Shown: positions 1 to 9,033 of the stretch, one piece after another | Layout of the letters: every line of letters begins with the position of its first letter | How positions within the stretch are numbered: position 1 is the stretch's first letter | DNA from: Polyangiaceae bacterium | GTDB taxonomy: Bacteria > Myxococcota_A > Polyangia > Polyangiales > Polyangiaceae | Direction: 5' to 3' | Assembly: GCA_029261965.1 (NCBI GenBank) | Contig: JAJDAH010000178.1 | Location: 1 to 42,986, forward strand | Length of the DNA: 42,986 nt | Notes under the pieces: model-generated | What the model was told of the DNA's origin: nothing | Databases searched by the model: none | Seen by the model: only the letters and a program-made list of their open reading frames with translations | Translations under genes and position numbers: made by a program

Positions 1-108
1 TCGTGAAACGACTGCCACACGGATCGAGCGCTGACGTCACAGTCGTGCCGCTCGTGCATCAGGATATGGCCTCGACACCACAAGAATCGCTGGAACGGAT
101 CGTGCTGA

Positions 109-1365
109 GTGCGCTCAGTGAGCATCTCGCGCTGGCACGCAGCGCAATCGGCTGCGCGTTCGCTCGCCGGGCGCGGCTCGGTTGCCGCGCTGAGTGTGCT
201 GTTCAGCGCGTACCTCGCGAGGGAGCTTGGAAAGGAAACGCTTGGACTAGTCGCCGTTCACGCCATCGCAGTTACGACCAGCCAAGTCGTTTTCGACCTC
301 GGACTCAGCTCCGCCGTAGTTCGAGAGGCGACGCCGCTCTTGGCGCGGTACGAACACCAACGAGCGGCGGAAACGATCGTGGGCGCTGCGACGCTGGCGC
401 GTCTACTGATCAGCGCGCTCGGCGCGCTCGCCTATCTCGGTGTCGCGCTAGCGCTGAGCGAGCGGCTCGGGTCGACCTTCAGCGACATCGAATTCAGTAT
501 CGTCGCGCCGTCAGCCGCACTCCATCTGTTTGCGGTTGCTCTCCAGCACATCCTCGGTCCTGTCTTCTTCGCGCGCGGCCAGTTCGCGGTGCAATCGACT
601 CTGGACTCGACCGGTGCGCTGGTCGAGAAGCTCTGCGCGGTACCGCTCTACGTCTTGTTCGGCATCGACTATTTTTTTCTCGGGCTGGCCGCTGGGCGAC
701 TCGTCGTCGCCAGTGTGGCCATTTTCGCCCAACGCTCGACCCTGCGGCACATGAAAATCGAGCGCTCGACACCCCAAAAAATGCTCGCACTAGTGAAGGA
801 GTACCGGGCGCACTATCAGCGTGTCCTCTACCGCCAGGGACTTCGGCAGGCCGACCGCATGCTCATCGCTTTACTCCTGCCTCTCGAGTCGCTCGCGACC
901 CTCCACGTCGCACGCCAAGCGTCAACGTATCTGCGTTACGTCGCACGCGCGTTCACCGACCCGTTTTCGGCGAGCCTAGCCGCCGCGCCCACCCTGCATC
1001 GCCACCAACGCACGACGGCGGCGTTCGTCGTCGGCATCCCGCTCGTCGTCGCGGCACTCAGCCCGTGGGTGATTGAGCTCGTCGGTGGTGAGCGCTACAA
1101 AGACGACTGGCCCATTCTGCTGGTGCTCTGCCTGAGCTACGCATTCTACGGACTCAGCGAGCTCCAACTCGGGATCATCACCATGCTCGGCCAGAAGGAC
1201 GAACGCGCCGGCGGTGACGCGATCGCTGGGGTGCTCGGGCTCTTGGCTACGGCGACGCTGGTCGCCTGCTTCGGGGAGATTGGCGCGCCGTTCGGCCAGC
1301 TCGCAGCATTCACGTTTCTGTACTTGGGCGCGCGACGCAGGGCGCGCCGGATCTGTCAGGCGTGA
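109..1365 (+). CDS. Wzx-like polysaccharide flippase
   Basis: Predicted inner-membrane lipid-linked oligosaccharide flippase of the MOP/polysaccharide biosynthesis superfamily. The 418-residue protein is almost wholly hydrophobic, with roughly ten or more membrane segments separated by short Arg/Lys-rich loops. The first segment region reads 'SVAALSVLFSAYLARELGKE', like the N-terminus of Wzx proteins, and the length fits the family. An in-frame TGA lies directly upstream, so translation starts at the GTG at 109 or the GTG at 118; 109 has a GGA-containing stretch about ten bases upstream. The 3' end overlaps the oppositely oriented adenylate-forming enzyme by 56 bp. With that neighbour it suggests the edge of a capsule or exopolysaccharide locus continuing to the left. 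The substrate cannot be told from sequence. The family assignment rests on hydrophobicity pattern and local resemblance only. Confidence 0.8.
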   Translation: MRSVSISRWHAAQSAARSLAGRGSVAALSVLFSAYLARELGKETLGLVAVHAIAVTTSQVVFDLGLSSAVVREATPLLARYEHQRAAETIVGAATLARLLISALGALAYLGVALALSERLGSTFSDIEFSIVAPSAALHLFAVALQHILGPVFFARGQFAVQSTLDSTGALVEKLCAVPLYVLFGIDYFFLGLAAGRLVVASVAIFAQRSTLRHMKIERSTPQKMLALVKEYRAHYQRVLYRQGLRQADRMLIALLLPLESLATLHVARQASTYLRYVARAFTDPFSASLAAAPTLHRHQRTTAAFVVGIPLVVAALSPWVIELVGGERYKDDWPILLVLCLSYAFYGLSELQLGIITMLGQKDERAGGDAIAGVLGLLATATLVACFGEIGAPFGQLAAFTFLYLGARRRARRICQA

Positions 1366-3683: not shown

Positions 3684-5027
3684 ATGCACGCCATCATCAG
3701 AAAGACCCGGCTTCCCTTCATCGGCGCAATCGGGCTGCTCGTCTCGGCGGGTGTCGCCTGCTCGAGCTCGGGAAACGGCGACGGATCCAGCTTCGGCGGG
3801 GGCGGCGCGACAGGTAGTGGCGGCAGCGGCGGCACTCGGATGGACGGCGGGGGCGGAGTCAGCGCGGCAAGCGGCGCCGGCGGCGGTCTTCTCGGTCGAC
3901 CGTGCGTCGCTGACACCGACTGCGGCACCGACGAGTTTTGCTCGGTGACGCAAGTCTGCACACCGGACGGTTCGTGCGGAAGCGATGGCGACTGCGTAAG
4001 CGGCGAATATTGTAGCAGCACACGCGAATGCATTCCCCTCGGCACTTGCACCGCGGACGCCGACTGCGCGGAGGTCGAAACCTGCGACCCGAACGGTGCG
4101 TGTGTCCCAGGCGACGGGTGCGGTGGCCAGGAGTTCGGCATCGAAATCATCGCACCGAACATGTTCATCGTCCTCGATCGCTCGTGCTCGATGCGGCGCG
4201 ATCTCACCAACACGATCAATCTCGCTGGACCGAACAAATGGACGTTCGCCGTGGCGGCCATCAACCAGCTCACGACCAACTTCGATGGGCAAATCCGCTG
4301 GGGGCTGAGCCTGTTCCCCGACCGCACCGGTGGTGACTGCCGACAAGACGCCCCGGCGGTACCGCTTGCCGACGGCATGGAACCGACGATCCAAGGGCTC
4401 TTGAACGCAGCTCTGAACCAGAGCGATACGAACTACCCCGACGGACCTTGCGTCACCAACATCGACACCGCTGTCGAGCAAGCCAGCCAGCAACCCGACG
4501 TGATGAGCGTCACGAGACCGACCTACGTGCTTCTGATCACCGACGGCAAGCAGGCCGGGTGTAGCCGCGCCGGAGGCGACTCTGGAACCGAGATGATCCT
4601 AGCCAGCATGTTTGCCGGCGGCGTGCCCACCTTCGTGGTGGGGTTCGGCGACGCCGGCTCGGGCGGAGTCATCGATCCGGTTCAAATGGACGCGTTCGCC
4701 GTCGCCGGTGGTGTGCCGCGCAGCGGTACGCCGAAATATTTCCAAGCAGACGATGCGCTGCAGCTCGATCAGGCGCTCGCGCTGATCGCTGGAAGCATCG
4801 TGGGGTGCAACTTCACCCTCTCCGACACTCCGGCTGATCCCGCCGATGTTTTTGTGTTCTTCGACGACCAGAAGGTCACTCGGGATCCGAGCGGAGCCGA
4901 GGGTTGGGACTACGATGGCGCATCGAACTCAATCACGTTCTACGGCAGCGCTTGCGACAGTCTGAAAGCTGGCCAGGTCGTCGATGTCGACGTCGTCTTC
5001 GGGTGCGACGAGCCCACGCCTTTCTGA
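3684..5027 (+). CDS. von Willebrand factor A domain lipoprotein with Cys-rich repeats
   Basis: Surface or periplasmic lipoprotein predicted to bind ligands through a metal-dependent vWA domain. Signal peptide and lipobox 'SAGVAC' (Cys26) are followed by a Gly/Ser-rich spacer (about residues 30-70). Next come three or four short Cys-rich units of the type 'CVADTDCGTDEFC' (about 74-146), then a vWA domain (about 155-370) whose MIDAS motif is 'DRSCS' at residues 165-169 (DxSxS complete). The C-terminal region has additional Cys residues and a probable beta-sandwich character. Start: the ATG at 3684 is chosen because it opens directly on the signal peptide; in-frame codons upstream do not resemble protein. 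The 3' end stops 11 bp from the convergent CLC gene. The combination is common among myxobacterial secreted proteins; the ligand is unknown. Confidence 0.9.
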   Translation: MHAIIRKTRLPFIGAIGLLVSAGVACSSSGNGDGSSFGGGGATGSGGSGGTRMDGGGGVSAASGAGGGLLGRPCVADTDCGTDEFCSVTQVCTPDGSCGSDGDCVSGEYCSSTRECIPLGTCTADADCAEVETCDPNGACVPGDGCGGQEFGIEIIAPNMFIVLDRSCSMRRDLTNTINLAGPNKWTFAVAAINQLTTNFDGQIRWGLSLFPDRTGGDCRQDAPAVPLADGMEPTIQGLLNAALNQSDTNYPDGPCVTNIDTAVEQASQQPDVMSVTRPTYVLLITDGKQAGCSRAGGDSGTEMILASMFAGGVPTFVVGFGDAGSGGVIDPVQMDAFAVAGGVPRSGTPKYFQADDALQLDQALALIAGSIVGCNFTLSDTPADPADVFVFFDDQKVTRDPSGAEGWDYDGASNSITFYGSACDSLKAGQVVDVDVVFGCDEPTPF

Positions 5028-7059: not shown

Positions 7060-8352
7060 ATGTTTCAGCGCTCGACTCTCTCGCTCGTGGTGCTCTCACT
7101 CACGTTCGCCTGCTCCGATGGCAGCCGGCCGGACACCGGCAGCGACACGGCTTCACCGGATCCTCTCCGGTACGAGCCCGCGCGCCGACTCGACCACGAC
7201 AACGTTCGTTACTACGGCGACGAGCCACTGCAGACTCTCGAGCTGCCCGAGCCGCCCAAGAGCGGCTTTCGGCTGATTGCGCCTCCGAAGGAAGTCGAGG
7301 CCGGGGGCGAGAGCGTCGAATGCACATCTTGGCAGGTCCCGGACCTGAAAAATCGCTGGATCTACACTTCCACGCTCCACGCCACGCCCGGACTGCACCA
7401 CGCCGTGCTCTACGGGCTGGGCATCGACGAGACTCTCGGTCCCGAGAGCTACCCGAGTTGCCGCTCGAGCGCTGACATTCGCATGTTCGCTCAGGCCGGA
7501 ACGGTGCTCAGCGAGCCTCACAGCGTCATCGAATGCACGGACCCGGTGTGCACCGAGCTGCAACGCTCCGGCAGGTCGCTACACGACGGCGCCTGCGACC
7601 TCGGCACTTGTAGCTTCGCCGGACTCACCGTTCCCGTGGTGCTCTCCGCGAACTCGACTCAAGCTCACGGGACCGAGCAATTTGCCTTCGACGATGGTTT
7701 CGCATTCGAGCTCCCGGGCGGGTTCGAAGTCGTCACGGATCTGCACCTGCAGAATACGACGCCAGATCGGCTGAGGGTCGAATCGGCGTGGGACTTCTAT
7801 ACGATGCCCGCAGACCAGGTGACGAACCCCACGGCGATGTTCGTTTGGTTCTGGAGTCAACTCTTGATCCCAGCCCGCAGCGACAAGACTCTGACCACCA
7901 CCTGTGAATGGGGCGGCGGTGAGGTCGTCGCCATCATGCCTCACACCCATCAGTGGGCCACGGGTTTCGACGTGACATTCGGCACCGCGGAGATGGACGG
8001 CAACATGCCGCAGCTGGGCACGTTTCGCGCCCAGCGCCCGGTCTACGACCGCACGAGCGTGGGACTCTCCGATAGCGACATCGAGGTCTACTACCCTCCG
8101 GTGAGCACCGAGGGCTCGAGCGCCGTCCAGTTCCGGTGCCACTTCGCCAACAGCACGGACCACGAAATGTACTTCGGTATCGGCGAAAACGAGATGTGCT
8201 TCCTGTTCGGCTACACGAGCCCGCCGGAGGGGCAGCGCATTGGATTCATCGCCGACGACTCGCCGGTCGACGAGACCGTGGCGGAACGATTGTGCGCCAC
8301 TCTGGATCCCGTGACGTTCCTCAACAATCCTCTGCTCATCGAAGCGCTGTGA
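7060..8352 (+). CDS. Lipoprotein with PHM/DBM-type type-II copper monooxygenase ligands
   Basis: Predicted exported lipoprotein (lipobox 'SLTFAC', Cys18) resembling the copper type II, ascorbate-dependent monooxygenase family (peptidylglycine alpha-hydroxylating and dopamine beta-monooxygenases). All six copper ligands of that family have a plausible counterpart in the right order. The first site is 'LHHAVLYG' (His113, His114) and 'DLHLQN' (His229). The second site is 'MPHTHQWATGF' (His295, His297) and 'GENEMCFLFGY' (Met379), the last closely resembling the 'NEMCNLYIMY' stretch of PHM. Many Cys could form disulfides. At 430 residues it is long enough for both halves of the catalytic core. An AAGAGG sequence abuts the ATG, unusually close for a ribosome site. 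Divergent from the CLC gene. The substrate is unknown; it could also be a copper-binding non-enzymatic relative. Confidence 0.8.
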   Translation: MFQRSTLSLVVLSLTFACSDGSRPDTGSDTASPDPLRYEPARRLDHDNVRYYGDEPLQTLELPEPPKSGFRLIAPPKEVEAGGESVECTSWQVPDLKNRWIYTSTLHATPGLHHAVLYGLGIDETLGPESYPSCRSSADIRMFAQAGTVLSEPHSVIECTDPVCTELQRSGRSLHDGACDLGTCSFAGLTVPVVLSANSTQAHGTEQFAFDDGFAFELPGGFEVVTDLHLQNTTPDRLRVESAWDFYTMPADQVTNPTAMFVWFWSQLLIPARSDKTLTTTCEWGGGEVVAIMPHTHQWATGFDVTFGTAEMDGNMPQLGTFRAQRPVYDRTSVGLSDSDIEVYYPPVSTEGSSAVQFRCHFANSTDHEMYFGIGENEMCFLFGYTSPPEGQRIGFIADDSPVDETVAERLCATLDPVTFLNNPLLIEAL

Positions 8353-8370: not shown

Positions 8371-9033
8371 CTAGCCGACTCGACGAAACACCGTTGCGAG
8401 CCAAGGCTGCTGATGCCGCGGCCGATCCGGCGGACGGTAGTAGTGCTCGATTTCTTCGAACCCGGCAGCAGTCACGAGCCCGGACCAGGTTTCGTGGTCG
8501 TGGTACGCGCCATAACGATCCCCCTGCCAACCCTCCTGATTGTCTCCGCGGGGATTCGACGAAAAAAACACGCCCCGCTCGTCTAGAGCACCGTGGAGTT
8601 CGCGAAGCACTCGCGGCAGCTCCTGCGTCGGCACGTGGAAGAGCACGGCGTTGGCAAAAACGCCGTCGAACGCTTTTCCCGGCAGGTCGAGCTCGAGCAG
8701 ATTCTGATGCAGCACCGGGCACCCAGCGAAGCCTCGCGCCATCTCGCAAAAGCGCTGCGCGCCGTCGAGTCCGGTCGGTTGGTGACCGAGCTCGCGAAAC
8801 GCGGCGAGATCCCGACCAGGTCCACAACCCAGGTCCAGAATGCGAAACGGCGGACGGCCTTCGAGGTGCCGAATCAGCGCATCGCGGTTCTGCGACACGT
8901 CGTGGCCCCGCGTACCTGCCCAAAACTCGTCGGCTCCGTCGTCGTAGTGCCCGATGGTGACATCGGTCACCTGCACCAAGTCTCGGGGTGCGAGCCTCGG
9001 CGCAGACGACCCGTGCGAGCCATGTGACCCCAT
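8371..9033 (-). CDS. Class I SAM-dependent methyltransferase
   Basis: Cytosolic methyltransferase of the small type-11/25 group. The SAM-binding motif I is 'ILDLGCGPGRDL' (about residues 65-76), followed by the acidic 'GLD' of motif II, then 'FDGVFANAVLFHV' and 'GVFFSSNPRG' as later motifs. Length of 220 residues is normal. The start ATG at 9033 gives an odd His/Gly/Ser-rich N-terminus ('GSHGSHGS'); a slightly later start is possible. It follows the Cys-rich lipoprotein gene by 19 bp on the same strand, so they may be cotranscribed. It ends 18 bp from the convergent copper-type lipoprotein gene, in a spot with a 16-bp-period duplication of GAAGCGCTGT. The substrate cannot be predicted. Confidence 0.9.
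   Translation of the reverse strand: MGSHGSHGSSAPRLAPRDLVQVTDVTIGHYDDGADEFWAGTRGHDVSQNRDALIRHLEGRPPFRILDLGCGPGRDLAAFRELGHQPTGLDGAQRFCEMARGFAGCPVLHQNLLELDLPGKAFDGVFANAVLFHVPTQELPRVLRELHGALDERGVFFSSNPRGDNQEGWQGDRYGAYHDHETWSGLVTAAGFEEIEHYYRPPDRPRHQQPWLATVFRRVG

Follow-up and report, generated by a model that had tools for sequence, protein, structure and literature searches.

Positions 7060-8352 of the window, meaning the whole 42,986-nucleotide stretch of Polyangiaceae DNA analysed here, are read, with a probability of about 0.75, as the gene for a dicopper monooxygenase of the PHM/DBH superfamily that is secreted and probably anchored to the outer membrane. The ligand residues, the homology, the predicted fold, the copy number and purifying selection in three pairs of relatives were observed directly; copper binding, monooxygenation, anchoring, the electron donor and the substrate class are what we infer. 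PHM, which finishes neuropeptides, and DBH, which makes noradrenaline, are the textbook animal pair for an unusual two-site copper chemistry, and the family described here bears on the origin of these animal enzymes. Beyond the earlier note on this DNA, the analysis adds 41 strong family loci, a clade of eight copies, the loss of the PHM clamp and a possible cytochrome donor.

Among the top-ranked papers from literature searches, which left most subscription journals outside their scope, no characterised bacterial PHM/DBH enzyme was found. PHM is called widespread in eukaryotes in the portion of one study available to us (PMC8812541), and the accessible text of another, which discusses eukaryotic PAM, contains no word starting with "bacteria" or "prokaryot" (PMC6529398).

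Expected copper ligands and the layout of the gene

The gene apparently stands alone, since the called neighbours on either side lie on the opposite strand; their translations, read by eye, are chloride-channel-like and methyltransferase-like. Elsewhere in the window, at 3684-5027, a lipoprotein-like ORF of 447 residues seems by eye to combine a Gly-rich linker with a von Willebrand-like stretch (MFIVLDRSCSM). The features of the gene under study are as follows.

7060..8352, + strand: gene for a PHM/DBH-superfamily lipoprotein of 430 residues (ORF translation, start MFQRST)
7060..7113, + strand: signal peptide and putative lipobox Cys18, SLTFAC (sequence and relaxed lipobox pattern; Cys18 invariant in a 7-row alignment)
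7255..7824, + strand: N-terminal jelly roll, about residues 66-255, expected CuH domain (AlphaFold2 strands and VIA alignment of 66..413; boundary inferred)
7396..7401, + strand: His113-His114, expected CuH ligands, matching PHM H107/H108 and DBH H262/H263 (alignment, cited ligands)
7534..7611, + strand: extra loop with four Cys, C159, C164, C179 and C184 (C-x4-C ... C-x4-C in the sequence)
7744..7746, + strand: His229, expected third CuH ligand, matching PHM H172 and DBH H333 (alignment)
7825..8298, + strand: C-terminal jelly roll, about residues 256-413, expected CuM domain (AlphaFold2 model and VIA alignment; boundary inferred)
7942..7950, + strand: His295-Thr-His297, expected CuM ligands, matching PHM H242/H244 and DBH H412/H414 (alignment, cited ligands)
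8188..8199, + strand: Asn377-Glu-Met379-Cys380, with Met379 the expected CuM ligand, matching PHM M314 and DBH M487 (alignment, cited ligands)

The six ligands named in the earlier note (His113, His114, His229, His295, His297 and Met379) are found exactly in the translation, and its "NEMC" stretch is present as N377-E-M-C380. The parts of the sources at hand assign H107, H108 and H172 of PHM to CuH and name H242, H244 and M314 (PMC6123673), give all six copper ligands of DBH (PMC4846438), and place the two coppers of PHM about 11 A apart (PMC6123673, PMC4846438).

Proteins read from 38 loci of the same genome, chosen by homology and without use of the motif, were aligned with the window protein to give 39 rows. 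His occupies the positions of H229, H295 and H297 in 39/39 members. The H114 position has His in 38 and one gap, and the M379 position has Met in 38 and one gap, at a contig end. At the H113 position 37 of the 39 have His; the other two are the N-truncated L031, with a gap, and L039, with Cys, whose N-terminal part is seemingly out of frame. Because the same residues are kept in 37-39 of 39 members picked by homology, the ligand pattern is not a product of chance. Asn232, the last residue of an HxxN following the third CuH His, is likewise invariant (39/39). All six ligand columns are also invariant across the window protein and 25 loci from other records, a set biased toward the motif: the scan pattern contained PHxH, EMC and HH guided both the choice and the trimming of the ORFs, and 25/25 loci passed. 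As a separate observation, L039 (contig C125) and L031 (C436) either lack the N-terminal half or have it out of frame, which would reflect a frameshift, a pseudogene or an assembly error.

Cysteines are retained in the 39 rows nearly as well as the ligands are: C88/C134 in 37 each, C360/C380 in 38 each, and C282/C412 in 37 and 36, respectively. These pairs fit core disulfides, as judged from the alignment, and presumably those of PHM. Of the 39 members, only the window protein and L019, the paralogue nearest to it, have the four-Cys loop, which may form two additional disulfides or serve as a third metal site. Near the N-terminus, C18 follows a hydrophobic signal and matches a relaxed lipobox pattern, which 32/39 members match within their first 90 residues. 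The window protein would thus be secreted and is probably a membrane-anchored lipoprotein, most plausibly of the outer membrane.

Homology to PHM and DBH and the predicted fold

As a single query, the window protein matches no Pfam or NCBIfam family, including both PF03712 (Cu2_monoox_C) and PF01082 (Cu2_monooxygen), nor does it match any PDB sequence at a limit as loose as E 10; a 7-row family profile also gave no match in the PDB. A 36-row profile of own-genome members (A2) was therefore needed, and it reaches rat PHM at 8.6e-22 and human DBH at 8.1e-21 over the whole catalytic core. In the printed PHM alignments the HH, H, HxH and M of the family fall on the ligands of PHM itself. This profile and the tree described below exclude 3 of the 39 rows: L031, L039 and L050, the last lying at a contig end. 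One paralogue, L053, matches DBH on its own (E 1.3e-15). Circularity is avoided by a chain in which the window protein alone finds the locus on contig C222 (1.8e-14), and that locus scores 48.7 bits with PF03712 against a cut-off of 23. At E 0.01 or better, 23/36 own-genome members match PF03712 and 2/36 match PF01082.

The fold was predicted with AlphaFold2 in template-free mode from the window protein and the 25 loci of other records (A3). The mean pLDDT of 67 is moderate overall. The ten-residue blocks holding the ligands average 83-87, residues 121-200 are mostly poor, and residues 1-66, modelled without structure, fall below 50 together with several loops. The first 31 Foldseek matches of this model are all PHM and DBH. 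VIA-align superposes it on PHM 6ala_A, an H108A mutant, with Z 22.1 (262 residues, rmsd 3.5 A), on wild-type PHM 1phm with Z 19.3, and on DBH with Z 21.6 (301 residues, 3.8 A). The next family is PNGase F, with Z 8.6. Matches at Z below 8, to virus capsids among others, are of a kind common to jelly rolls and were left unused. This order of Z values is in line with the double-jelly-roll Pfam clan that PHM and PNGase F share, according to the accessible part of the source (PMC8812541).

The earlier note had proposed comparing a predicted structure with PHM, and the comparison bears it out, in that the model has two tandem jelly rolls of PHM topology. It had also held that a fold in which the ligand residues do not form two copper sites would count against it; the predicted model gave no such fold at the level of fold and alignment, the only level at which this point is settled. 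Profile homology, the match of L053 to DBH and a predicted fold with Z up to 22.1 together uphold a bacterial member of the PHM/DBH fold with both ligand sets, and the kinship of the window protein to these enzymes is solid. That the His and Met residues form a chance pattern in an unrelated beta protein might be suggested by the failure of the single sequence in Pfam, NCBIfam and the PDB; with a profile E of 8.6e-22, a Z of 22.1 and conserved ligands, this candidate is refuted, and hardly any probability attaches to it.

Copies, relatives and gene neighbours

The window protein finds 40 matching stretches in its own genome, and Pfam searches there find 25 for PF03712 and two for PF01082. The family profile finds 44, of which 41, below 1e-30, are taken as strong family loci; these E-values are not independent, because 36 of the loci built the profile. 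Three of the 41 are damaged, by truncation, loss of frame or the end of a contig. The paralogues are 19-63% identical to the window protein, and 13/36 members lie outside PF03712 at E 0.01. The 41 strong loci offer a source of variants and substrates, and perhaps of another electron donor as well. Five loci, on contigs C313, C406 (two), C155 and C297, were found later and are in neither the profile nor the tree. By eye, L095 (C313) and L096 (C406) have all six ligands, L097 (C155) has them with EMF instead of EMC, and the second locus of C406, L098, lacks the ligands.

PF03712 is matched in 39/59 genomes (the genome studied and its relatives). Among the 59, the genome studied has 22 matches, G033 has 24 and the other 57 have at most 12. 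G033, of the same order and another family, is a second large expansion, with 24 PF03712 matches and 85 first-look candidates from the family profile. Across the phylum, at least 185 of 283 genomes have one match or more; the census scored about eight candidates per genome, and its counts are floors.

In a tree of 71 rows (36 from this genome, 10 from relatives and 25 from other records), L019 is the sister of the window protein (support 98/92), and both belong to a clade whose eight proteins come exclusively from this genome (100/99). The adjoining clade (100/100) is made up of eight proteins, each from a different genome of the same family. Since the members of the eight-copy clade are only 45-64% identical to one another, the copies appear, from sequence divergence, to be old. 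The clade is taken as special to this lineage, because no stretch in 38 relatives exceeds 47% identity to the window protein; genomes outside this sample may differ. Purifying selection was seen in three orthologue pairs of genus g14, with dN/dS of 0.10-0.15 in these, the computable ones.

Mutual comparison of the 39 ORFs called next to members of the eight-copy clade gave a single alike pair, the methyltransferase-like genes at window positions 8371-9033 and at L022 positions 3726-4367 (29% identity, E 5.7e-14). Both lie immediately downstream on the opposite strand, facing the window gene and L022, respectively. Such genes are common, and the shared neighbour may be chance.

Haem-binding-type motifs recur around other members of the family. 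Two own-genome paralogues, L052 (C332) and L053 (C316), have an N-terminal CXXCH before the copper core, and L097 (C155:66804-67637) has a CX4CH stretch in the same place; all three are possible cytochrome-PHM fusions. L053 and L097 gave no match to Pfam cytochrome families. In the other records, 17/25 homologues have CX4CH or CXXCH after the core, and the tail of one, L063, matches planctomycete cytochrome c below threshold (E 0.0066; 17.5 bits against a cut-off of 22).

In genus g14, a gene with two CXXCH motifs directly follows the orthologue on the same strand in 6/6 genomes, these being all the g14 genomes given by the phylum census, at a distance of 21-41 bp or with a 4 bp overlap (script-chosen starts). 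The six count as weak independent events, because they are close kin. In 5/6 the fetched stretch also encodes a five-CXXCH protein, directly beside the orthologue in one, and in G291 a homologue of it is on another contig. With Pfam cytochrome models, the two-CXXCH protein reaches at best 19.5 of the 27 bits required and the five-CXXCH protein 24.6 of 30. The locus of G013 (L091 3931-7875), with L099-L103, shows a cluster of a five-CXXCH protein, a PHM-like lipoprotein and a lipoprotein-like gene with two CXXCH; the tail of the G013 five-CXXCH protein is, we presume, MYXO-CTERM-like.

The window protein itself lacks a haem motif, its gene is without a CXXCH neighbour, and only 3/170 called neighbour ORFs of the 41 stretches in its genome have CXXCH. 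Outside g14, the fetched stretch of the orthologue in G045 (L104) holds no CXXCH protein. In G018 (L092) the next gene downstream encodes a Cys-rich protein with a single CVCCH and no Pfam family, the sole such protein there. Both G018 and G045 have homologues of the five-CXXCH protein, at sites distant from the orthologue.

Possible function and relation to known enzymes

In the proposed mechanism, each of the two jelly-roll domains would hold one copper. The CuH site (H113, H114, H229) would pass one electron, and the CuM site (H295, H297, M379) would bind O2 and, outside the cytoplasm, hydroxylate an organic substrate at a C-H bond. This substrate would most likely be a small or peptide-like extracellular molecule rather than a glycine-extended peptide of the PHM type. 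Instead of ascorbate, c-type haem proteins of the periplasm or the cell surface may supply the electrons, a tentative suggestion with the odds somewhat against it, and one put forward with restraint because CXXCH neighbours occur regularly in just a single genus. Rather doubtful is the wider picture, in which myxobacteria would possess an arsenal of extracellular PHM/DBH-type hydroxylases running on surface c-type cytochromes instead of ascorbate, with one enzyme copied eight times here into dispersed loci. If true, it would mean that a respiratory chain feeds the hydroxylation of C-H bonds by dicopper enzymes outside the cell.

Other roles would use the same fold and ligands. The very high copy number, and the lack of a common partner gene among the 39 neighbour ORFs save for the methyltransferase-like pair, would suit a surface protein that binds copper for storage, buffering or adhesion and catalyses nothing. 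However, mere binding would tolerate the loss of one site in some copies, whereas all six ligands, including the unusual Met of CuM, are kept in paralogues at 19-63% identity, which makes such a role unlikely. An extracellular oxidase, acting in predation or biomass decay by producing hydrogen peroxide or by attacking polymers as an LPMO does, would agree with the presumed secretion and with the expansion in some genomes of the order. It is nevertheless quite unlikely, given that the fold matches are PHM and DBH (LPMO was not among the deliberate comparisons) and that both copper sites of the known PHM/DBH enzymes serve the hydroxylation of a substrate.

It is very improbable that the protein is a genuine peptidylglycine alpha-hydroxylating enzyme involved in preparing peptide amides, even though PHM, level with DBH, is the closest solved relative by fold. 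In PHM, R240, N316 and Y318 form what we take to be the clamp for the peptide carboxylate. The alignment places Met293, Phe381 and Phe383 of the window protein at these positions, and among the 39 members Arg is found at the first in none, Asn at the second in none and Tyr at the third in 3. Because these residues are lost, a PHM-type peptide substrate is unlikely for the window protein, so far as residue identities indicate; the protein also has no Pfam match to the lyase part. Hydroxylation of another extracellular molecule by a dicopper monooxygenase is the reading we prefer.

The protein shares with PHM (rat, 1phm/1opm/6ala) the double jelly roll, the six ligands in order and the EMC motif. 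The identity in the fold matches is 14-16%, the third His is followed by HxxN, as in DBH, where PHM has HYGD, and the window protein has about 65 additional N-terminal residues with the lipobox, as well as the four-Cys loop. With DBH (human, 4zel) it shares the copper core fold (Z 21.6) and this HxxN. The DBH disulfides, including C232-C283, are described in the parts available of two sources (PMC6123673, PMC4846438), and the pair C88/C134 stands in the place corresponding to C232-C283. Unlike DBH, the window protein has no room for the dimerisation domain, no Cys at the C269 position and no Pfam match to the DOMON domain that precedes the copper core in DBH/MOXD, and it is probably a membrane-anchored bacterial form. 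HHMxxFxC and HxFx4HTHxxG, which we take to be the strict PROSITE patterns of animal PHM/DBH, are matched by 0/39 own-genome members.

PNGase F belongs to the same Pfam clan and has a double jelly roll, as stated in the accessible part of the source (PMC8812541), yet it is an amidase and a far weaker match (Z 8.6). The PF03712 and PF01082 proteins of this and related genomes are kin of the window protein, which itself falls outside both models. Because the clamp is replaced, the DOMON domain absent and the strict animal patterns unmatched, the window protein is neither PHM nor DBH, and is a distinct member of the superfamily to which both belong.
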